This document shows positions 8,846-47,502 of a DNA stretch of 47,502 nucleotides, piece by piece. Numbering within the stretch: the first letter of the stretch is position 1; the number at the start of each line of letters is the position of its first letter. The notes under the pieces are model-generated. The model ran no database searches, was not told the DNA's origin, and saw only the letters and a list, made by a program, of their open reading frames with translations. The DNA is taken from assembly GCA_030529855.1 (NCBI GenBank), contig JAUMWC010000014.1, forward strand, positions 1-47,502, given 5' to 3'. Source of the stretch: Gemella sp. Its GTDB lineage: Bacteria; Bacillota; Bacilli; Staphylococcales; Gemellaceae. The translations under genes were made by a program, and so were the position numbers.

Positions 8846-9838
8846 ATGCCAGAACAAGCATTATTTGGTGGACTAACAGTTATAATAGTCCTAGTTATTT
8901 TATCGGTATTTTTTACATTCTTCCCATTAGGGCTATGGATTAGTGCTATAGCGGCGGGTGTAAAGGTATCTATTTTTACCTTAGTAGGTATGAGATTACG
9001 AAGAGTTATTCCTAGTAGAGTTGTTAATCCTATGATTAAAGCTCACAAAGCAGGATTAGATGTTACAATTAATCAACTAGAAAGTCACTATTTAGCTGGT
9101 GGGAATGTTGATAGAGTGATTAATGCTTTAATAGCTGCTCATAGAGCAAATATTGTAAGTTTAAGCTTTGAAAGATGTGCTGCGATTGATTTAGCAGGAC
9201 GTGATGTTCTTCAAGCTGTTCAAATGAGTGTTAATCCAAAAGTAATAGAAACTCCATATATTGCTGGGGTTGCTATTAACGGTATTGAAGTTAAGGCTAA
9301 AGCACGTATTACGGTTCGTGCTAATATCGAAAGACTTGTAGGGGGAGCAGGAGAAGATACAGTTATTGCTCGTGTAGGTGAAGGTATCGTATCGACAATT
9401 GGTTCTTCAGCGTCTCATACAGTAGTTTTAGAAAACCCTGATAGAATTTCTAAAACAATTTTAGAAAAAGGATTAGATGCAGGAACTGCTTTTGAAATCC
9501 TATCTATTGATATACTAGATGTAGATATCGGACAAAATATTGGTGCTAATCTACAAACAGAACAAGCAATTGCTGATAAAAATATAGCTCAAGCTAAAGC
9601 TGAACAAAGAAGAGCGATGGCTGTAGCCCAAGAACAAGAGATGAAAGCTCGTATTCAAGAAATGAGAGCCAAAGTAGTTGAAGCTGAAGCAGAGTTACCA
9701 TTAGCGATGGCTAAAGCTTTCCGTGAAGGAAATCTAGGAGTAATGGATTATATGAATTACAAAAACCTAGAAGCTGATACAGGAATGAGAGATTCTATTA
9801 AGAAAATGTCACAACCTGAAACAGAAGCAGGTAAGTAG
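8846..9838 (+). CDS. floA: Flotillin-like protein FloA
   Basis: 330 aa. FloA forms membrane foci that act as scaffolds in functional membrane microdomains. An N-terminal hydrophobic hairpin (~8-45) anchors the protein. An SPFH/band-7 domain follows ([15 protein letters not shown] ... [19 protein letters not shown]). A coiled coil rich in Ala/Glu ([19 protein letters not shown]) covers the C-terminal third. The start is ATG 8846 (MPEQALFGG). A GTG in frame at 8837 overlaps the RBS AAAGGAG (8831-8837) and cannot be the start. The length is typical of Bacillus and Staphylococcus FloA (YqfA). Confidence 0.93.
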
Positions 9839-9849
9839 GTGAGAGATTT

Positions 9850-10275
9850 ATGAATTTCTTATTCGTAGCCATTCCTGTTATAGTTGCAGTAGTTGGTATC
9901 ACATTCGTGATAGTGATGCTTGGTGATAGTAATAAACATGTCAAGAACATGGATACAGCTAGCCAATTAGAACTAGAAAGAAATAAAGAAGCTGCTCTTG
10001 AAGAAGTAAAAAAAATAAAAGCCCGTGGCTTTGTTCCAGAAGAATCTGTTGAAACTACAGAAGAAACTGAGATTGATTTAAATTCTAAGGTTAATACTCA
10101 GGCGGAAGAAATCGAGAAATTAAGAGCAGAATTAGAAGAATTGAAAAAAAATGCAAGAAATTCTGGAGTAGTTAATATTGTTTCGGAGAAAAAATCTATT
10201 ATTGAGTTTTCTAAAGAAAGTTTGGTAAGAGGTTTAGTAACAAAAGAGTACCTGCAGAAGAAGGATAGAAGGTGA
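9850..10275 (+). CDS. Small membrane-anchored coiled-coil protein in the flotillin operon
   Basis: 141 aa, not recognised. One N-terminal membrane span (FLFVAIPVIVAVVGITFVIVML) is followed by an acidic region and a coiled coil (~85-115). The C-terminus, IEFSKESLVRGLVTKEYLQKK, resembles that of the next gene (TFTKEQFVKDYIMAEILSK). It starts 11 bases after the floA stop and ends 4 bases before the next start, so it belongs to the operon. The position suggests that it may be a partner of FloA, inside the cell and tethered to the membrane. No function is known to me. Confidence 0.75.
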   Translation: MNFLFVAIPVIVAVVGITFVIVMLGDSNKHVKNMDTASQLELERNKEAALEEVKKIKARGFVPEESVETTEETEIDLNSKVNTQAEEIEKLRAELEELKKNARNSGVVNIVSEKKSIIEFSKESLVRGLVTKEYLQKKDRR

Positions 10276-33267: not shown

Positions 33268-33291
33268 AGGGCAAATTGCCCTTTTTTTATA
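33265..33291. terminator. Terminator at the 3' end of the integrase gene
   Basis: AAAAGGGC (33265-33272) with GCCCTTTT (33278-33285), loop AAATT. The T-run is long on the plus side and short on the minus side. It lies just beyond the integrase stop codon. Confidence 0.65.
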
Positions 33292-34423
33292 TGCTCATAT
33301 ATTCAGCAAATTGTATTGCTGTTTGTTGTTTTAATTTTTCTGTTACGTGGTTATAGATATTCATTGTAGTTTTAAAATCTGAATGTCCTAATCTTTTTTG
33401 TACAGCTTGAATACTAGCACCAGCTTCAAACATTAATGAACAATGGGTATGTCTAAAGCCGTGACAACTAATACTCTTAAGATTGAATTTTTTTTGTATT
33501 CGTCTTAATGTTGTGTTTATTGATGTTGAGCTTAAACGTCTATTATTTTTATTAACAAATACATAGTCATTGTTACGTACACCCATTTTAAATAGTAATT
33601 CTCTTTGTGCTATTTTATAAGAGTGTAGTTGTTGCATTGTAAGAGGGTCAACGTCTATGATACGTTTACTACTTTTAGTTTTAGGACTTTGTACTATTTG
33701 TGCATTATTTTCCCCTCTAGACACAGTTTTATTAATACTAATAGTGTTAGCTTTAAAATCAATGTCTTGCCAGTCTAATGCCAGTACCTCTCCAATTCTA
33801 GCCCCAGTAAAGCCTAATAATCTAAATATCATAAATAGAGTAGGCGAGTAATTTTCTTTTATTACTTCAAGAAAATATAATAACTCATCTTTAGTATAAT
33901 ATTTCTCAATTTCCTCTTTATCATCAGTTTCAATTCTAGGCTTTTTTATTTTATCCATAGGGTTACTATTCAGTAAATTAATATTTACAGCATATTCAAA
34001 GACCATATTTAATAATTTTATTAAGTCGTTTAAATAGTTTTTGCTGTATATATTCCCCCAGTCATTTACTATTTTTTGTAATTCTAGCATTGTTATTTTC
34101 TTTATATCGATATTACCGAGAATTGATAATATTGTTTTTGATATTGATAAATAAGAATTAAGTGAACTTTCTTTTATTGTATGTCTATGGTTATCTATCC
34201 AAATATCATATACTGCAGAAAAGGTATGTTTTTTATTGCGAACAAATAAAGAACCTTTTTCAAATTCTATTTTCTGTTTAGCTATGTATATTTCAGCTTC
34301 CTTTTTACTTTCAAACCCACGTTTTGTTTTTCTTACTTCCTTACCAGTAATAGGGTTAATCCCTAGATACAAGTTATTTATCATATATAGTTTTTTATTG
34401 TTTTTAGTATATTGTTTAATCAT
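33287..34423 (-). CDS. int: Tyrosine-type site-specific integrase
   Basis: 378 aa. It catalyses island integration and, with an excisionase, excision. The N-terminus is an AP2-like arm-binding domain (KKLYMINNLYLGINPITGKE), followed by a SAM-like core-binding domain. The catalytic set is complete: Arg209 (GARIGEVLAL), a Lys near 248-250, His321 and Arg324 (CHGFRHTHC), His347 (LGHSDFKTT) and Tyr357 (NIYNHV). It belongs to the Firmicute phage/ICE group. It reads leftward out of the island and is the last gene of that arm. The start follows GAAAGGAA on the minus strand. Confidence 0.93.
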   Translation of the reverse strand: MIKQYTKNNKKLYMINNLYLGINPITGKEVRKTKRGFESKKEAEIYIAKQKIEFEKGSLFVRNKKHTFSAVYDIWIDNHRHTIKESSLNSYLSISKTILSILGNIDIKKITMLELQKIVNDWGNIYSKNYLNDLIKLLNMVFEYAVNINLLNSNPMDKIKKPRIETDDKEEIEKYYTKDELLYFLEVIKENYSPTLFMIFRLLGFTGARIGEVLALDWQDIDFKANTISINKTVSRGENNAQIVQSPKTKSSKRIIDVDPLTMQQLHSYKIAQRELLFKMGVRNNDYVFVNKNNRRLSSTSINTTLRRIQKKFNLKSISCHGFRHTHCSLMFEAGASIQAVQKRLGHSDFKTTMNIYNHVTEKLKQQTAIQFAEYMSI

Positions 34424-34636: not shown

Positions 34637-34770
34637 TTGATTTTTGTTCACACTTATATTATACTAATAATAACAAAGATAACTTGCGAAGGATAAACGT
34701 TGTGTTCCCGAATGGGAGTAAGTCAATGGACGAGAATTCACATATGCCTGGGGTTATCTTATTTTTTTGT
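34637..34770 (+). ncRNA. Predicted small structured RNA convergent with the HEPN gene
   Basis: Promoter: -35 TTGATT (34637-34642), 17-bp spacer, -10 TATACT (34660-34665). The predicted RNA starts near 34,672. A long-range stem AAGATAAC (34676-34683) with GTTATCTT (34753-34760), extended by two G-U pairs, encloses about 69 nt with an inner TCCC-GAAT-GGGA hairpin, and ATTTTTTTG follows directly, as in an intrinsic terminator. The 3' end overlaps the last bases of the DUF3644 gene on the other strand. No protein-coding frame with an RBS is seen. The remainder of the 335-base gap 34,424-34,758 holds the repeat and the hairpin described above. Confidence 0.5.
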
Positions 34771-35739
34771 CTTATTTTTAAGGTTAGTTACAAAATTTAT
34801 AGGATCTTTTTCTATTTCTTCTACAAGAAAATCACAGAAGTTAGAAGAATAGCTATAACGATTACCTAACTTATAATGATAGCAAAATTTATTATTTTTC
34901 TTAATATCATAAAAACTGTTAAATAAGTTCAAGTCATTTGTAGTGAATGGCTTTTTTATTTTGTCTCCTGCTACCACTTTTGTTAATAGTATGTCTTTAG
35001 ATTTTAATTTCTTATTTACTATTTTGATTACTTCTTTAGTGGTATGTGGATAGAGTGCATGAGGGTCTTTTATCTCTCTTAATACATTTACAGTTGCATC
35101 AGCTGAACTATCTACTTTTACTAGCAAGTCGGCTTCCTCTTTACGTTTAGTTATATAAAATCTTGTTTCTACAGGTATTGCATAGTCTGAATTACTAGAG
35201 TGTATCTCTGATTCAATTTTTGCTTTCTCAGATAATAAACGTTCTGCCATTTGTGGAGAATATTTAGCTTTTATTTCCTCGCTATTTAATTGATCTATAC
35301 GAACTGATAAAGTAAGGAAATTTTGGGCGATTTGTTTAGTTATATCTATATTGTGGAATTCTTGCATTTTTAAAATATAGTTAGCAACACATGCTTGGAA
35401 TAATGGAGCATAGATATGTTCATAATCTTCTGTTATGAAGTGGGTACTAGTATTTCTTAACTCAATAATTTGAAGAAGATTTTTTCTTAATGAACCATGT
35501 TTATCAGGGAATATTTTTTCTACTGAATTCTCTAGTGAAATAGTTCTATCACTGTCTTTATAATATATAGAAACACCTTTATTTAGTAATTCAGCTTTCA
35601 GCATTAGTTCCCAAGCGTTACATATAAAGAAACTAAAACCCTCAATTCTATATTTAATTGTTGGTTTATTGTATATTTCTAAACCTAAGATAAAAGCTTC
35701 AATACTTTTATCAACCATTCTTTCTGATAAATTTTCCAT
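34759..35739 (-). CDS. DUF3644 protein with HEPN RNase motif (candidate anti-phage effector)
   Basis: 326 aa. The N-terminal block (KSIEAFILGLEIYNKPTIKY ... FSFFICNAWELMLKAELL) is characteristic of DUF3644. Residues 95-100 read RNTSTH, which fits the HEPN Rx4H active site; HEPN proteins are often RNases that act in toxin-antitoxin or abortive infection systems. A middle coiled coil follows, and the last ~90 residues (YPHTTKEVIKIVNKKL ... FTTNDLNLFNSFY) look like a helical winged-type binding domain. It sits between int and repressor, the usual accessory slot of PICIs. The promoter and a leader terminator lie upstream. An antitoxin is not obvious. The defence role is inference. Confidence 0.8.
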   Translation of the reverse strand: MENLSERMVDKSIEAFILGLEIYNKPTIKYRIEGFSFFICNAWELMLKAELLNKGVSIYYKDSDRTISLENSVEKIFPDKHGSLRKNLLQIIELRNTSTHFITEDYEHIYAPLFQACVANYILKMQEFHNIDITKQIAQNFLTLSVRIDQLNSEEIKAKYSPQMAERLLSEKAKIESEIHSSNSDYAIPVETRFYITKRKEEADLLVKVDSSADATVNVLREIKDPHALYPHTTKEVIKIVNKKLKSKDILLTKVVAGDKIKKPFTTNDLNLFNSFYDIKKNNKFCYHYKLGNRYSYSSNFCDFLVEEIEKDPINFVTNLKNKTKK

Positions 35740-36590: not shown

Positions 36591-37778
36591 TTATTGCATA
36601 AATAAAGATAAGATATATAAGATTATACAAATTATAAATGTCCACCCTAAACATCCAAAGCAGCCGGAAATTTTATTATTTAAATTAACAGGTTGAATTT
36701 TCTGTTCGTGTAGTTCTCGTTCAAAATCATTTTCATCAGTATTGTCAAAGTCGCTATCATCTTCATAGTTGTCTTCATAATCATCTTCATAATCATCCTC
36801 ATCATCTTCATAATCATCTTCATGGTTATCTTCATAATAATCATAATTTGTATAATCTGTTACACGGGGATTATTATTTGATAACGTTCTTTGAAATGCT
36901 TGATTAAATATAGTATCCTTAGTATCTTCATCATTATTCAAATAAGATAAAATTATTTCTTTTATTTCAGTAACGCTAAATATATAGTTCTTTTTGTTTT
37001 TGTACTTTTTACACTCTTCATTAATGGTAGTCAAATAGCTTTCATCATTTGATATTAATTTAGAGAGATTGACTATAAAATGATTTGGAACTTCTGTTTT
37101 ATCCACAAATTGTTCATATTTTGTTTGTTCACTATTGAAATAAGCAATTTCTAGTTCTGTTAAATAGCTATACAGTGCTTTAACGTAATAAGATATTGAT
37201 AATTCAAAATCGTTGTATTTCACGGCAACGTCACCTAATTTCCTATAAGAGTAGCAGTGAACGGATTTTGGAATTTCTTTATTTACTTCTAAAGTAACCT
37301 CTATATATTTACAAATAAGTTCTAAATCAGTTCTTTCAGGGTTATCTAATGCGAATTGATAAAGTGCGTTAGGATGAGAGTATTCTTGAAATAGATTATG
37401 CACATCAATAAGGTATTGAGTATTGTTAACAAGTTCCATTCCTTTTTCTGTAACAAGTTCTACTTTTTTTACATAATTTGAATATGTGTTTAAATCAGCT
37501 TTTTCTATAATTCTTTTTATTAATACGTCTTTGTTTCCACTAACTTTTAATTCGTTCTCTTTTAGAATTTCTTTTAATTGAGCTCCAGTTAATCGACTAA
37601 GTGAACTGGCTTCATCTTCTTTTGTTTCTATCAACTGATTTTTTAATAAATTTTTTATACTTTTTTTAGTATCTACTAAATATCTATCTCTCCAAAATAC
37701 TTGCTCTAAATTAGATGCTTGTGTTTTGTAATTAAGATAATGTAATACCAGTATGTCTATTCCTTTTAAATTATTCAC
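36591..37778 (-). CDS. SAP-domain protein with acidic linker and C-terminal membrane anchor
   Basis: 395 aa. The N-terminal ~55 residues look like a winged helix; a SAP domain follows (~62-96: LTGAQLKEILKENELKVSG, NKDVLIKRI), then VELVTEKGMEL. SAP domains normally bind DNA. The middle (~110-310) is helical and TPR-like in feel. Residues ~318-350 are a run of DDYEDDEDDYEDD-type acidic repeats. The last 18 residues (GWTFIICIILYILSLFMQ) form a membrane anchor. It therefore would tether a DNA-binding head to the membrane, which is unusual. The start is GTG 37778 after AGAGGAT. It is directly downstream of the repressor. Confidence 0.75.
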   Translation of the reverse strand: MNNLKGIDILVLHYLNYKTQASNLEQVFWRDRYLVDTKKSIKNLLKNQLIETKEDEASSLSRLTGAQLKEILKENELKVSGNKDVLIKRIIEKADLNTYSNYVKKVELVTEKGMELVNNTQYLIDVHNLFQEYSHPNALYQFALDNPERTDLELICKYIEVTLEVNKEIPKSVHCYSYRKLGDVAVKYNDFELSISYYVKALYSYLTELEIAYFNSEQTKYEQFVDKTEVPNHFIVNLSKLISNDESYLTTINEECKKYKNKKNYIFSVTEIKEIILSYLNNDEDTKDTIFNQAFQRTLSNNNPRVTDYTNYDYYEDNHEDDYEDDEDDYEDDYEDNYEDDSDFDNTDENDFERELHEQKIQPVNLNNKISGCFGCLGWTFIICIILYILSLFMQ

Positions 37779-37957: not shown

Positions 37958-38611
37958 TTAATCATTATTTATAATATCACTGTCAATATACATTTCACCC
38001 AAAGACTCTAGGATAGAGTTTATTATTTCTTTTTGTTCAGTATTTAGTTCATAACTATCTAGTATATTGCTATAAAAAGTAAGTAATTCAATACCGTGTT
38101 CACTTTTTATAAAATCTAATGACTGTACAAAATTTTCACCTAGTTTTTTCTTATCGTTGGAAATTGCAATTAATATCCTAGATTTTAAGTTTATTTCATT
38201 ATCGGCTATTGCAATTAATTTATCAATATCATTAACTGTAATTTCTTGTTCTTGAAGGTATCTAATCAAATTAAGAATAGTATTCATTATAACAATTCTA
38301 TTTTTTGATTTCTTTATTTCTTCAAGTTCTTCTTTATTTAGATTTTTATATTTATCATCTAATTGAAAATAATTTTCAGATATAAATTCTCCAACGCTAC
38401 CGTAAAGTAATTCATTTACACTCATATCCCCAAGCTTTGCTATTGCTTTTATACGTTCCTTGTTAGGGAGTGAACGACCGTTCTCCCAAAATTGTATATT
38501 ACTTTTTCCGGTATCAAATATCTTTCCGAATTCTTCAAGGGTATAGCCCTTATCTAGTCGTAGTTGCTTAATTCTAAGACCTACATTTTGTTTATTAACT
38601 TGTATTTTCAT
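37958..38611 (-). CDS. XRE-family repressor (CI/Stl-like)
   Basis: 217 aa. The N-terminal HTH (~10-65; GLRIKQLRLDKGYTLEEFGK, IFDTGKSNIQFWENG) is a clear XRE domain. The C-terminal ~150 residues are helical, with no peptidase Ser/Lys pair of LexA-type CI proteins that I can see, so it is unlikely to be cleaved by RecA. In PICIs the Stl repressor is released by helper phage proteins instead; this would fit. It is divergent from the Cro-like gene across a shared control region. Confidence 0.85.
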   Translation of the reverse strand: MKIQVNKQNVGLRIKQLRLDKGYTLEEFGKIFDTGKSNIQFWENGRSLPNKERIKAIAKLGDMSVNELLYGSVGEFISENYFQLDDKYKNLNKEELEEIKKSKNRIVIMNTILNLIRYLQEQEITVNDIDKLIAIADNEINLKSRILIAISNDKKKLGENFVQSLDFIKSEHGIELLTFYSNILDSYELNTEQKEIINSILESLGEMYIDSDIINND

Positions 38612-39856: not shown

Positions 39857-40087
39857 ATGGAGAAGTTAAGAGAATATCAAGCTGTTATTTACAATGTAGG
39901 ACACGCTATAAAACTACTAGAAGTAGGTGTAAGAGAATTAGGGGAGAATGGTGGCTTTAATAAATATGAATGTAAAATCATTGATGGACTAGTAGGAACT
40001 ACAATTTTAGTTAGTGAAAAACTAGAAAAGTTATCAGAAGAAATTGAACAGGAGTTGAGAAACAATGGAAGTAGTATTAAGCAGTAA
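39857..40087 (+). CDS. Island early protein, unknown function (76 aa)
   Basis: 76 aa, helical (VGHAIKLLEVGVRELGENG ... LEKLSEEIEQEL). Not recognised. The last 23 bases overlap the start of the HTH gene. Confidence 0.6.
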   Translation: MEKLREYQAVIYNVGHAIKLLEVGVRELGENGGFNKYECKIIDGLVGTTILVSEKLEKLSEEIEQELRNNGSSIKQ

Positions 40088-40331
40088 TTACCAAGAGAAA
40101 TTAAAAGAAGAATTAAGGGAGCTTATCAGACAGACAGCAAAAGAAGAAGCTGAAAGAATACAACCAGGTAAAAGGTTATATAATGCTACTGAATTAATGC
40201 AGTATCTAGGTTGTGGGCAACAGACCCTAAAAGAATTGCAAATAGCAGGACTTAAAGAAATGAAAGTAGGTAGGCAACGATTATTTGATATTGAAGAAGT
40301 TTATGAAGTGTTAAAAGCAAGAAGAAAATAA
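40065..40331 (+). CDS. AlpA/excisionase-like DNA-binding protein
   Basis: 88 aa. An N-terminal helix (QEKLKEELRELIRQTAKEEAE) is followed by a MerR-like HTH of the HTH_17 type: LYNATELMQYLGCGQQTLKE, GLKEMKVGRQRLFDIEEVYEVL. Such proteins act as excisionases or as AlpA-like activators of integrase genes in satellites. Either role fits here. RBS CAGGAG. It overlaps the previous gene. Confidence 0.75.
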   Translation: MEVVLSSNYQEKLKEELRELIRQTAKEEAERIQPGKRLYNATELMQYLGCGQQTLKELQIAGLKEMKVGRQRLFDIEEVYEVLKARRK

Positions 40332-40832: not shown

Positions 40833-41183
40833 ATGAGTTGCAGAAAATTAGATAATGAACCTAACAAAGATATAAGGTATTTACTTTTTAATATACCTAA
40901 TTTTAGAACTAAATTAGAGCAATTAGAGAGAAATAATAACAGTAAAGAAGAAATAGTCACAGAGATTAAGAGAGAACTCTCAAGGTGGCTTAATATTCTT
41001 AATACTGACGTTGCTGTTGATATTAAAGGAATTAGGGCGAGTATATTTGATTATAGAAAACAAATGTATAAAAGTTCTTACGGACTAGATAAAGTAGGAA
41101 TATTAGATTTAACTAAGGATAGATTGAACTACTGGCAAGGACTAGCACAAATGGTATTAAAAGAAAGAGAGGAGGGTTGCTAA
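40833..41183 (+). CDS. Island protein upstream of the primase, unknown (116 aa)
   Basis: 116 aa, basic/helical (LEQLERNNNSKEEIVTEIKRELSRWL...), no known motif. The start is ATG after AAAGGG. It overlaps the primase gene by one base (TAATG), so it is probably a replication or regulation accessory. Confidence 0.62.
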   Translation: MSCRKLDNEPNKDIRYLLFNIPNFRTKLEQLERNNNSKEEIVTEIKRELSRWLNILNTDVAVDIKGIRASIFDYRKQMYKSSYGLDKVGILDLTKDRLNYWQGLAQMVLKEREEGC

Positions 41184-43684
41184 TGGCAATATATAAACAA
41201 CTAGGGTTTAAAACTAAACAATTAACACTAGTAAAGGGAAATAAACCTTTATTTGAGATGTTACAAGATTATGATGTTGTAGATGATACAACCGACTTAC
41301 AAAAATATAAAGAGCAAACAGCAACATATATTATAGTTGGAGAAATGAAACCAAATGAGCAAGGGCAGTATATAAGAAGTAATGCTAATATTATCAGCCG
41401 TGACTATGCTTTTTTAGATTATGATAAGATAGATATTTCTAATGCTGATTTTATTAATCTAGTAGCCGATAAATTACAAGGATTTGAATACCTTTTATAT
41501 CCAACTATTAGGCATACAGAAGAAAAGCCAAGATATAGGCTAGTATTGCCCCTAGAACGTTCAGCAATTGAACAAGAGTATAAAAGTACTATTCAAAGTA
41601 TAGCTGACTGTATAGGGCTTAAAAATGATAGTTCTAGTGCTACATTTTCACAGTTACAGGGTACACCTGTAGTAAGAAAATCACAAGCTGATAATTATAA
41701 GATTATTCATATCACTGGGGAAAAATACCCAGTGAGTGAAGCTAAAGTTACTAAACGTAGGGAGAAGGTACAGAAAACAGCTAATATTTTAAATTCTAAT
41801 GATTTAAAGAGAATGTTTGAGTTATACCTTGAATTAGATGAGCCTAATTTAATAGATGATTATAATAACGCCTTATCAGTAATTCAAACAATAGTAAAAG
41901 AAGAAATTGCAGGAACTATTGATGTTGTTACAGCATCAGATTTTGTTACTTTACTAGCTTATGATAATGAAGCATATATCAAAGGAAATATTGATAAGTA
42001 CAATGCTGAGAAACAACAAGCAGTAGTTAACCCTAATTATATAAGGACAACCTACACGTTTAAAGATAGATTTAGGGCTTGTATTAGTGGAGTAGTAGAC
42101 AAGAATAAACGGAAAGTTTTTGCCCAGTTATGGAATAAAAACTATACTAATCCAGTAATTGATTTTACAGAAAATAAAAACTATTTTGATATTTTAGAAA
42201 ATAACCCAAATATTAACGTCATAGAGATGTTTCAAGATATAGGTTATAGATGGAGAGAAGAAAATTCTACTATAAGTGAAAAAAATGGAAAACTGTACAT
42301 TCCAGAAATGGATTTTGTTACGGTAACGCAGTTAATAAAACAGCATATTCCTTTTATCAAAGTCGGAGAAACCAAGGACACATCAACTCTTTATTATTAT
42401 GATTTTAAACAAGGGATATATGTTCATAGCATTTCAGAGATAGAAAGTTATATAAATGCTCTAGAATATAGATATAAACCTAGATATTATTCAGAAGTAA
42501 TAAATAAATTAAAAAATGAAAATGAAGTTGAATATGTTGAAGAAATGCCAGAATATTTAAAAAATTATATTCCAGTTAATAATGGCTTGTTTAATGTTAA
42601 TTCCCAAAAATTAGAGCCATTTAGCTATAAACATTATATAACAAGTAAGGAAGCTACAAATTATAATATTGAAGCAGAAAATCCAGTAGAATATTTTGAT
42701 GTAGATAAGTGGTTTAAGGCAATAGCTAATTATGACGATGAAATAGAATTGTTATTGTGGCAATTAGTTAACGAAGCAATCAACGGTAATAACACTCGTG
42801 AAAAAATAGCAATATTATTAGGTAGCGGTAAAAACGGTAAAGGTACTTTTCAAGCAATGTTAAGAAATCTGATAGGTAAAAAGAATGTATCAGCCTTAAA
42901 AATGCATCAGTTTTCTAATAAATTCGATAAAGCTAAATTATTAGGAGCTATATGTAATATAGGCGATGATATAGAAAACTCTTACCTTGACGAAGTGGGA
43001 GATTTGAAAACAATAGCAACAGGAGACCCACTTACAATCGATAGGAAAAATAAAGACCCACTAACTATAATTACAAAAGTTTTATTAATTTTTAGTGCAA
43101 ATGAAATACCAAAGACACGAGATAAAAGCGATGCTTTTTTAAATAGATTATTGATAATTCCTTTTAATGCTGATTTTAATGGCGAAGTACAAGATAAAAG
43201 TATTAAAGAAGAAAAATTAAAAAATCCTAAAGTTTTGGAATATATTTTGAAAAAAGCCATAGAAATGAAATTTGATAAGTTTATAGAACCAAAGGCAGTA
43301 AAAAAAGCACGTGCCGATTATAAAGCTGAAAACGATACGGTTAATGATTATATGAATAACTCTTATATAATTAGAGGTTTTCATAATTTAGATGTGGTAG
43401 CAACAGCATTTATAAATGCAGATTATAAAGCATATTGTGAAAAAGCCTTGAATACAAAACCTAGAGCGAATATAGCTAAGGATTTAGCTAGGAATTTGAA
43501 TTCAGAATTTAAAAAAGACGGGGTCAGTTATTATACAAAAAATGCTAGATATACTAAAGAACATCTAGAACAGTATAGTGATTTTGACAAAGAATATTAT
43601 CACGACGATAAAGAGGGTAACCCTAATTTTAATCACTATTTAAATGATATTCCTTCTATGAAATTAATACGTGAAAAAAGATAA
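41183..43684 (+). CDS. Primase-helicase replication protein (AEP-like plus SF3)
   Basis: 833 aa. The N-terminal ~200 residues resemble an archaeo-eukaryotic primase (ISRDYAFLDYDKID with DxD near 74-84; RHTEEKPRYRLVLPL; GTPVV). An SF3 helicase follows: Walker A GSGKNGKGT (547-555), Walker B IGDDIE (594-598) and motif C LLIFSANEIP (~637-643), with a winged-helix-type C-terminal part. It is the island initiator, acting on the iterons directly behind the gene. I choose ATG 41183 (MAIYKQLGF), inside the TAATG overlap with the preceding gene and after AGGAGGG; an earlier in-frame TTG at 41177 overlaps that RBS. Confidence 0.88.
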   Translation: MAIYKQLGFKTKQLTLVKGNKPLFEMLQDYDVVDDTTDLQKYKEQTATYIIVGEMKPNEQGQYIRSNANIISRDYAFLDYDKIDISNADFINLVADKLQGFEYLLYPTIRHTEEKPRYRLVLPLERSAIEQEYKSTIQSIADCIGLKNDSSSATFSQLQGTPVVRKSQADNYKIIHITGEKYPVSEAKVTKRREKVQKTANILNSNDLKRMFELYLELDEPNLIDDYNNALSVIQTIVKEEIAGTIDVVTASDFVTLLAYDNEAYIKGNIDKYNAEKQQAVVNPNYIRTTYTFKDRFRACISGVVDKNKRKVFAQLWNKNYTNPVIDFTENKNYFDILENNPNINVIEMFQDIGYRWREENSTISEKNGKLYIPEMDFVTVTQLIKQHIPFIKVGETKDTSTLYYYDFKQGIYVHSISEIESYINALEYRYKPRYYSEVINKLKNENEVEYVEEMPEYLKNYIPVNNGLFNVNSQKLEPFSYKHYITSKEATNYNIEAENPVEYFDVDKWFKAIANYDDEIELLLWQLVNEAINGNNTREKIAILLGSGKNGKGTFQAMLRNLIGKKNVSALKMHQFSNKFDKAKLLGAICNIGDDIENSYLDEVGDLKTIATGDPLTIDRKNKDPLTIITKVLLIFSANEIPKTRDKSDAFLNRLLIIPFNADFNGEVQDKSIKEEKLKNPKVLEYILKKAIEMKFDKFIEPKAVKKARADYKAENDTVNDYMNNSYIIRGFHNLDVVATAFINADYKAYCEKALNTKPRANIAKDLARNLNSEFKKDGVSYYTKNARYTKEHLEQYSDFDKEYYHDDKEGNPNFNHYLNDIPSMKLIREKR

Positions 43685-44182: not shown

Positions 44183-44407
44183 ATGGATTGGCAAGATATA
44201 GATAAACGTCTAGTAGAAAGTATAGATTTAGAATTTTATGAAAAATTAGATCCGATTGAAGAAATAGTATTTGATTTAAAATATATGAAGTTAATGCCAA
44301 CTTATCAAATATCATCAGAAACAAACTATTCAGAAAAAACAATAAGAAGAACAGCTAGTAGTATTCGTTCTAAATATATGGAGTATATCAATGTTAAAGA
44401 AGTATAG
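44183..44407 (+). CDS. Small sigma-like HTH regulator (74 aa)
   Basis: 74 aa (MDWQDIDKRL...). The helices LKYMKLMPTYQISSETNYSE, KTIRRTASSIRSKYMEYI resemble sigma-70 region 4, as in phage ArpU/RinA-type late activators. I choose ATG 44183, because GAGGGGTG is 8-9 bases in front; the in-frame ATG at 44165 lies inside the complementary leader and lacks an RBS. It overlaps the next gene by 17 bases. Confidence 0.7.
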   Translation: MDWQDIDKRLVESIDLEFYEKLDPIEEIVFDLKYMKLMPTYQISSETNYSEKTIRRTASSIRSKYMEYINVKEV

Positions 44408-45059
44408 AGAGATAAAGAGAACATTAGCGAAGCTCCATTATATCCGTGAACAAGATAAAGATTTTATATTATCTCAAGGTGTGTTTAACTATGGACAGAT
44501 AAAAGTGAAATCTAGTTTAAAAAATCATTTTGCCGATAGAGTAGATAAAATAATAGACACTACATTCTTAACACGTGCTAAATTGAAAGAATTAGCCCAT
44601 TTTAAGAGTGATTTAGAAGAACGGCTAACAAATTACCACAATGAAACATTTAAAGCTATAATAAGGCTCTATGTGTTTGATAATTTGAATATAAATAAAA
44701 TTGCTAAAAGATATAGGCTTAAATATCATACAGTAAACAATATAATTGATTTAGGACTAAAGCAGATATATAATCCGACAATACACAGAGATGAAGCAGA
44801 ATATGAGTCAGAGTTGGATATATTACTTTATAGCAGTACTCTAGATGATGATATTATCCAACAAGTAGAAAGCTATATAAACAAGCTAAATAAGTATGAT
44901 TATAATTGTTTGATTAATTGCTATAGGGATATGGCTTTGACAGTTCAAGAAGTGGCTACAATACATAATAAAAAGATATGGAACGTAGCTTTAAACATTG
45001 AGAGAATGAAAGATGAGTTAATACAATTAGTGCCAGTAGAAAAGAGATGTATATTCTAG
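44391..45059 (+). CDS. Sigma-like HTH regulator (222 aa)
   Basis: 222 aa. Two HTH-like regions: AIIRLYVFDNLNINKIAKRY, RLKYHTVNNIIDLGLKQI (~90-125), and LINCYRDMALTVQEVATIHNKKIWNVALNIERMKDEL (~170-210), as in sigma region 4. Position just before the terminase genes suggests that it activates packaging genes. Not assigned to a family with certainty. Confidence 0.68.
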   Translation: MLKKYREIKRTLAKLHYIREQDKDFILSQGVFNYGQIKVKSSLKNHFADRVDKIIDTTFLTRAKLKELAHFKSDLEERLTNYHNETFKAIIRLYVFDNLNINKIAKRYRLKYHTVNNIIDLGLKQIYNPTIHRDEAEYESELDILLYSSTLDDDIIQQVESYINKLNKYDYNCLINCYRDMALTVQEVATIHNKKIWNVALNIERMKDELIQLVPVEKRCIF

Positions 45060-45145
45060 TTAAAGTTTAAGGGAAATATTGTAAAATAGTTAGAGGTTAG
45101 CAAATAAATTTTATAGAGGATATTAAAAGAAGGGAGGTAATTAAA

Positions 45146-45646
45146 ATAAAACCATTAACATTAAAACAGAAACGTTTTGCAGATGAATATATAATAACAG
45201 GGAATGCTTATAAATCAGCAGTAAAAGCAGGATATAGTGAAAAATATGCTAAATCGGATTCTTCAAAATTACTGGAAAATACAGGAATAAAAATATATAT
45301 AGATAACAGGCTAGAAAAACTCCAAAAAACAACCATAGCAACACAAGAAGAAGTTCTTGAAAAATTAACAAGTATACTAAGGCAAGAAAGTATAGAGAAT
45401 GTTAAACAAATTAATCCGATAACAGGGCAAGTAATAGAGTATGAGAAAAAACCTAGTATATCGGATGTGTTGAATGCAGGTAAAGAATTATTAAAAAGAT
45501 ATTCAACTATCCCAGTAGATTTACAAATTGAAAAGTATAAAGCAGAAGTAGAGAAAATTAAACAACAAACGTCAGTAGATGATGAACAAGATTCTAAAAT
45601 TGCAGATTTTGCAAAAGCATTAAGGGAAAGATTTGCTAAAAAATAG
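45146..45646 (+). CDS. terS: Terminase small subunit with AUA start (TerS 1)
   Basis: 166 aa, complete and uninterrupted, but absent from standard ORF calls because it has no ATG, GTG or TTG start. The N-terminus KPLTLKQKRFADEYIITGN, AYKSAVKAGYSEKYAKSDSS matches the Terminase_2 HTH of phage small terminases, followed by a helical oligomerisation part and a short C-terminus. RBS AGGGAGG (45131-45137) is 8 bases before ATA (45146); the frame is open back to a TAG at 45098. The first standard start codon downstream would be near 45,467, far inside the domain. TerS recognises pac/cos DNA and directs packaging. Whether AUA works here is not known. Confidence 0.75.
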   Translation: MKPLTLKQKRFADEYIITGNAYKSAVKAGYSEKYAKSDSSKLLENTGIKIYIDNRLEKLQKTTIATQEEVLEKLTSILRQESIENVKQINPITGQVIEYEKKPSISDVLNAGKELLKRYSTIPVDLQIEKYKAEVEKIKQQTSVDDEQDSKIADFAKALRERFAKK

Positions 45647-45704: not shown

Positions 45705-46229
45705 ATGACAAAAGAGGATAAACTAATAAAAGAAATATCAAGTTATGCTTTAGATTTAATGAGTAATTGGAAACCAGCAAGGAACAGACAAAAAGCCTTT
45801 ATATTGGAGTATGTAGCCAACAATTTCACTAATGCCTCAAGGTGTGCTGTAAAAGCTGGATTTAGTGAGAAAAACGCTAGGAAAGTAGCCAGTAATATGT
45901 TAAACGGTGTAGGCAAATATCAGCATATATCACCAGTTATATATAAAATAGAGCAAGAATTTGATAAACGTAGTGCAGAGTTATCGGTAGCAAGTGCTAT
46001 AGAAATAAAGCAATTTTTAACGGCTGTAATGCGTGGAGAAATAAACGATATTAAATTAATAAATACTGGAGCAGGTAGACAAGAAGTAATACAAATACCA
46101 GCAGATTTATTAACTAGATTAGTAGCTTCTGATAAATTAGCAAAGGCTCTCGGAATGTATACTAAAAATGTTAATGCTGTAGTAGGTGGAGATATTGTCT
46201 TTGAGTTTGGAGAATGGGAAGAGGAGTAA
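45705..46229 (+). CDS. Second terminase small subunit-like protein (TerS 2)
   Basis: 174 aa. The N-terminal half, NRQKAFILEYVANNFTNASR, CAVKAGFSEKNARKVASNML, is a Terminase_2 HTH and aligns with TerS 1 (KRFADEY..., AVKAGYSEKYAK). The C-terminal half (EIKQFLTAVMRGEINDI, PADLLTRLVASDKLAKALGMY) is more like Terminase_2 members of lactococcal and streptococcal phages than TerS 1. It starts 58 bases after TerS 1. No large terminase follows. A broken copy of its 3' end lies at 46470-46520. Confidence 0.8.
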   Translation: MTKEDKLIKEISSYALDLMSNWKPARNRQKAFILEYVANNFTNASRCAVKAGFSEKNARKVASNMLNGVGKYQHISPVIYKIEQEFDKRSAELSVASAIEIKQFLTAVMRGEINDIKLINTGAGRQEVIQIPADLLTRLVASDKLAKALGMYTKNVNAVVGGDIVFEFGEWEEE

Positions 46230-47449: not shown

Positions 47450-47502
47450 TGTACTGCGCCCAAAAAGTTGGACAGTATTTAACTAAAGGATTTAGTTCTG
47501 AA
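47450..47502. mobile_element. Left end of an IS3-family (IS150-like) insertion sequence (partial)
   Basis: The stretch begins TGTACTGCGCCCAAAAAG and continues TTGGACAGT, a terminal repeat very like those of IS150-group elements, with TG at the outer end. A leader-type palindrome AACTAAA-GGA-TTTAGTT (47481-47497) follows. The transposase would lie outside the window. Confidence 0.65.

Follow-up and report, generated by a model that had tools for sequence, protein, structure and literature searches.

The small-terminase gene terS1 of a Gemella sp. contig (JAUMWC010000014.1, assembly GCA_030529855.1), all 47,502 nucleotides of which are called the window here, is very probably a functional gene of a phage satellite that is translated from an AUA codon. 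This reading follows from the start codons of its relatives, the selection acting on them, the strength of its Shine-Dalgarno (SD) sequence, and published precedents. Comparison of sequences indicates that a non-AUG start is a recurrent property of the TerS family, a related motif class of which begins mostly at UUG, AUC, AUA, or AUU. An AUU-started terS was already known from phage TP-J34; what is new here is that such starts recur across the family and that AUA and AUC are among them.

The terS1 frame extends over positions 45146–45646 of the forward strand and comprises ATA at 45146–45148, 166 sense codons in all, and the stop codon TAG at 45644–45646. The features of the gene and its start region are as follows.

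45098..45100, forward strand: in-frame stop codon TAG upstream of terS1, with no ATG, GTG, or TTG from there to codon 108
45131..45138, forward strand: Shine-Dalgarno sequence of terS1, AGGGAGGT, pairing with 16S rRNA at -17.4 kcal/mol
45146..45148, forward strand: ATA, the putative start codon of terS1, at the place homologous to the ATA, ATC, ATT, TTG, and ATG starts of relatives
45146..45646, forward strand: terS1, complete small terminase of the Terminase_2 family (Pfam, PHROG, and PDB-profile matches, AlphaFold model)

The original prediction had described a small-terminase frame that lacks a usual start codon and is intact to its stop, and both points proved correct. The frame is open from the upstream TAG, and its first in-frame usual codon is GTG 45467 (codon 108), with TTG 45470 next. 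A stop-free run of 166 codons has a probability of ~1e-7 by base composition, and the other two forward frames contain 22 and 19 stops; the open frame is not due to chance. The product matches Pfam Terminase_2 (PF03592; E = 7e-29, 101.7 bits against a cut-off of 26.1, residues 4–136), the PHROG terminase small subunit (PHROG 51; E = 6e-33), and the solved TerS chain 3zqp (E = 1e-34), and its profile matches to the structures 3zqp and 2cmp cover the DNA-binding and oligomerisation regions. By profile, TerS1 is thus a member of the Terminase_2 small subunits, predicted to bind a pac or cos site and to form a ring that acts with TerL. In an AlphaFold model, the N-terminal domain consists of four helices and is confidently predicted (pLDDT about 90), whereas the rest is less certain. 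Because the first helix of this model begins at residue 6, a start at ATA would yield a complete DNA-binding domain.

The SD core AGGGAGG (45131–45137) is separated from ATA by a spacer of exactly 8 nt, as had been noted originally, and of the 14 gene starts of the island that were compared, terS1 has the SD with the strongest pairing to 16S rRNA. RNA folding revealed no structure of note at the start (z = +1.4), and the region is essentially unstructured. Other candidate starts were considered and rejected. Initiation at GTG 45467 or TTG 45470 would leave 59 residues, with the DNA-binding domain gone entirely, and ATT 45140, the sole other nearby near-cognate codon, was set aside because it lies just 2 nt from GGAGG, too close for initiation. 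In the proposed mechanism, the unusually strong SD and the 8-nt spacer would place the ribosome at AUA, where the initiator fMet-tRNA would pair with A and U and be mismatched at the third base only, giving an N-terminus of fMet-Lys-Pro-Leu. Output would be expected to reach about 10–30% of that from an AUG start and to be sensitive to IF3, and the purpose of the arrangement may be to restrain TerS, and in phages also the terL that overlaps it, or to couple it to the growth state. We infer the initiation at AUA in this strain, the lowered dosage, and its purpose from these features.

The relatives with which terS1 was compared came from IMG/VR, GTDB genomes, named phages, and related whole genomes; the start codon was no selection criterion, and the set also took in one 14-base motif scan, which was unspecific. 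Among 186 distinct TerS, 27 have no usual start codon within reach, and all 27 have ATH (ATC in 11, ATA in nine, and ATT in seven) at the start position, against an ATH background in these genes of 8.5% per codon. An exact SD match was present in 21 of the 27, with the codon 7–9 nt behind GGAGG except in one gene (L223), where the scored register places it at 12. In many of the 27, the conserved leucine is preceded by a stop codon at a distance of only five or six codons, so that no alternative start is available. In another eight TerS, an SD precedes an ATH codon but not the usual codon that is also present. Since the sequences are akin, these counts do not represent independent events; on the protein tree of TerS, in which many forks are weak, at least 14 changes between usual and ATH starts are required.

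Purifying selection on these genes was assessed from synonymous and nonsynonymous changes, a comparison that the original prediction had proposed alongside that of start codons and that came out in favor of translation from AUA. Pairs of non-AUG TerS mostly gave dN/dS values of 0.004–0.2 at synonymous distances from 0.3 to more than 1, including an ATA–ATC pair (L297–L295, 0.06) and an ATA–ATA pair (L297–L298, 0.09). A few pairs reached 0.3–0.4, the top value coming from two nearly identical genes separated by very few changes. The pattern is unlike that of long-dead genes and, on these substitution rates, the non-AUG TerS are under strong purifying selection. As terS1 is too diverged from any relative for dN/dS, codon positions were used instead: its differences from its nearest relative (L002, in a prophage of a sister species) fall 32% at first, 24% at second, and 45% at third positions, i.e., third > first > second.

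The combination of an ATH codon with no usual start was particular to TerS in a control set of ORFs of at least 100 codons that follow an extended SD, drawn from all the loci fetched, being found in 15 of 45 TerS ORFs vs. none of 93 non-TerS ORFs. Mean SD pairing was also stronger for non-AUG TerS (-17.5 kcal/mol) than for AUG TerS (-14.2 kcal/mol; p = 4e-8), which fits a strong SD compensating for a weak start codon. TTG-started TerS were in between (-16.3 kcal/mol), their difference from non-AUG TerS not being significant (p = 0.06). Members with ATG, GTG, or TTG were scored at the codon with the best SD, and any bias therefore favors those members.

The interchange of start codons is most directly visible in a motif class of 51 distinct TerS that contain GGTGNTGGAAAAT, in which the start is TTG in 28, ATC in 11, ATA in eight, and ATG in only four. 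A series of the form GGTGATGGAAA-ATG/ATC/ATA-GCAAAA (AAA-ATG-, AAA-ATC-, and AAA-ATA-GCAAAA) contains homologous bases throughout and differs in the third base of the start codon. The terS1 gene of the window is without an exact motif of the GGTGNTGGAAAAT class, and it reads GGTAATTAAAATA in place of GGTGATGGAAAAT, the motif of the largest ATH class; its ATA still precedes the conserved Leu of L-T-x-K-Q by three codons, as in most relatives. A motif scan of IMG/VR, sorted by third base, returned 15 contigs with A, 22 with C, and three with G. Alignment identified a TerS in 29 of the 33 contigs newly fetched from it; the N-terminus of a TerS begins in three of the other four, but not in the last, a G match. 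Four to seven of the C contigs also have ATG or TTG at or just after the conserved leucine and are not forced cases. Upstream of TerS in L091, L203, L230, L495, and many other loci, GGTGATGGAAAAT is conserved beyond its SD complementarity, in its GGAAAAT part. It contains an out-of-frame ATG, and in TTG members a three-codon frame, ATG GAA AAT TGA, overlaps the TTG start.

Precedents for such initiation exist both in phages and in host genes. An AUU start was reported in 2014 for terS of the inducible phage TP-J34 (PMC3952083), and in Streptococcus thermophilus phages of the TP-J34 type this near-cognate codon lies behind AAGGAGGT. Like terS1, TP-J34 terS (orf28), O1205 ORF25, and Sfi11 gp172 (HE861935, U88974, and AF158600) are homologous Terminase_2 small subunits with no usual start. 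The TP-J34 group differs from terS1 in that its members start at AUU and are full phages with terL next door. The AUU start is treated in that paper as an oddity of one phage, and it is common to S. thermophilus phages of the Sfi11/2972 group. In Staphylococcus aureus, infC, ccpN, and citZ start at AUA and cvfC1 at AUU behind a strong extended SD; these near-cognate starts were proven by retapamulin ribosome profiling and reporters and yield about 10–30% of AUG output (PMC13009471). They share with terS1 the near-cognate start and extended SD, but they are host genes without a role in packaging, and terminases are not mentioned in the text of that paper. The terS1 gene can be placed among near-cognate-start genes with an extended SD on three grounds: it contains no usual codon that would give the conserved N-terminus, its strong SD is properly spaced from ATA, and its relatives have homologous near-cognate starts under purifying selection. 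In the open-access literature, no paper was found that treats non-AUG terS starts as a family trait, and TP-J34 was the only terminase described with an unusual start. By analogy with IF3 genes, infC of the same Gemella genome (L476, contig C37 near 9703–9912) appears to start at ATT in a layout like that of terS1. The ATT lies 8 nt after GGAGG (TAGGAGGTGCTGGTCATTAGT) in a frame that reads TAGGAGGTG-ctggtc-ATT-AGT, and a GTG inside the SD is also in frame.

The surroundings of terS1 include the following genes.

33287..34423, reverse strand: tyrosine integrase, left end of the island (Pfam, PHROG)
37958..38611, reverse strand: HTH repressor in the PICI rpr/Stl position (Pfam)
40065..40331, forward strand: small HTH or excisionase-like protein (PHROG)
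41177..43684, forward strand: primase/helicase-type replication protein (DUF5906, D5_N; Pfam, PHROG)
44391..45059, forward strand: gene upstream of terS1, weakly similar to phage transcriptional regulators (PHROG 36)
45705..46229, forward strand: terS2, a second, divergent small terminase with an ATG start (Pfam, PHROG)

By its gene content, the terS1 island is a predicted PICI-like phage satellite. Its gene order agrees with that of PICIs (PMC6092414): a divergent repressor separates the integrase and accessory genes on its left from the xis, pri/rep, and terS genes on its right. No terL, portal, or structural genes were found in the 14 kb between the integrase and position 47502, where the contig stops short of the island's right end, and queries with Javan226 TerL, PF03354, PF04466, and PF05133 gave no match in the draft genome. 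Likewise, the TerS of SaPIs and PICIs is encoded by a satellite without an adjacent terL, and it directs helper packaging to the satellite (PMC6092414). Unlike those systems, the window contains two different terS genes in tandem, one of them with an AUA start, and their packaging role is predicted from the genes. Between the integrase and the repressor lie genes for a DUF3644 and EC042_2821 restriction-like protein and a SAP-domain protein (34759–35739 and 36591–37778, both on the reverse strand), which are likely accessory and possibly anti-phage cargo. The TTG at 41177 that is listed as the start of the primase gene lies immediately next to GAGGAGGG, so the true start is probably a later codon. 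Adjacent pairs of TerS-like frames also occur elsewhere, in L231 and at G368:C16:15042-15689.

The presence of an intact, ATG-started terS2 adjoining terS1, and the fact that the exact terS1 gene is known in one copy only, would be compatible with the proposal, contained in the original prediction, that an ATG-to-ATA mutation recently silenced terS1 and left TerS2 as the working subunit. This explanation is nonetheless unlikely. A further 26 distinct TerS, intact and under purifying selection, have ATH at the corresponding position, and some of them belong to phages that were isolated on hosts; the terS1 SD is strong and its frame intact, and its nearest relative starts with TTG rather than ATG. 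TerS2, moreover, is a terS of another type. A second sister species (G005) has a prophage of a different type whose TerS is 49% identical to TerS2, and TerS1 is closest, at about 59%, to the TerS of the prophage in the first (G002); a terL-like gene follows terS in both prophages. We infer from these sequence matches that the satellite may be equipped for two helper types. An error of sequencing or assembly at 45148, the true codon being ATG, is still less probable. A single base would turn ATA into ATG, and the source is a draft assembly of 40 contigs, but ATG is such a minority in the homologous motif class (four of 51) that it is not the prior expectation at the terS1 start, and in TP-J34 and TP-EW resequencing excluded an error at the AUU codon (PMC3952083).

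Production of TerS by ribosomal frameshifting from a short upstream frame is scarcely credible. The proposal draws on the out-of-frame ATG of GGTGATGGAAAAT, which is located just after GGAGG in many relatives, yet this ATG is absent from the window, TP-778L, L284/L293, and the GGTGGTGG variants, and it is no more than the last part of the extended SD complement AAGGAGGTGAT. Its frame is -1 in TTG members and +1 in ATA and ATC members, so no single shift would fit all of them. The gene at 44391..45059 ends 87 nt before ATA and therefore cannot feed terS1 by a frameshift.

With translation of terS1 from AUA as the favored reading, it is plausible, by analogy with the S. aureus reporter data, that the codon keeps TerS low, as had been suggested originally. 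Possible as well, although falling somewhat short of probable, is a wider role, suggested by how seldom ATG occurs in the motif class: weak initiation at UUG, AUC, AUA, or AUU behind a near-perfect SD would be a selected, conserved control of TerS dosage in Gram-positive siphophages and their satellites, perhaps responsive to IF3 or growth state, and AUG would be avoided owing to the harm done by too much TerS. A family that combines a strong SD with a weak start codon provides a natural setting in which to test why TerS has to be kept at a restrained level, and non-AUG terS genes could serve as natural reporters of initiation fidelity (IF3) in phage-infected cells.

An ATH start, which relatives of terS1 in many phages of Gram-positive hosts share, is better regarded as a working, often mis-annotated way to begin TerS than as the mark of a broken gene. 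Gene finders limited to ATG, GTG, and TTG miss or truncate such terS genes, the part lost being the DNA-binding end, and non-AUG starts also affect the detection of satellites that carry terS. For 2972, P4761, phiGBSVK-E1 (ATA), and Javan355 (ATC), the annotated terS begins at an internal codon and lacks the DNA-binding end (records with mis-started terS: AY699705, KY705258, PP766232, and MK448738). The O1205 terS is annotated from the homologous ATT, and that of Sfi11 (AF158600) was deposited as 5'-incomplete. Interrupted TerS frames were encountered at two loci. At L506:1832-1856 the frame stops after about 29 residues, and at L513:764-788 it is broken early, with GIY-YIG-endonuclease-like sequence directly after FADEYII, a possible intron or intein-like insertion.
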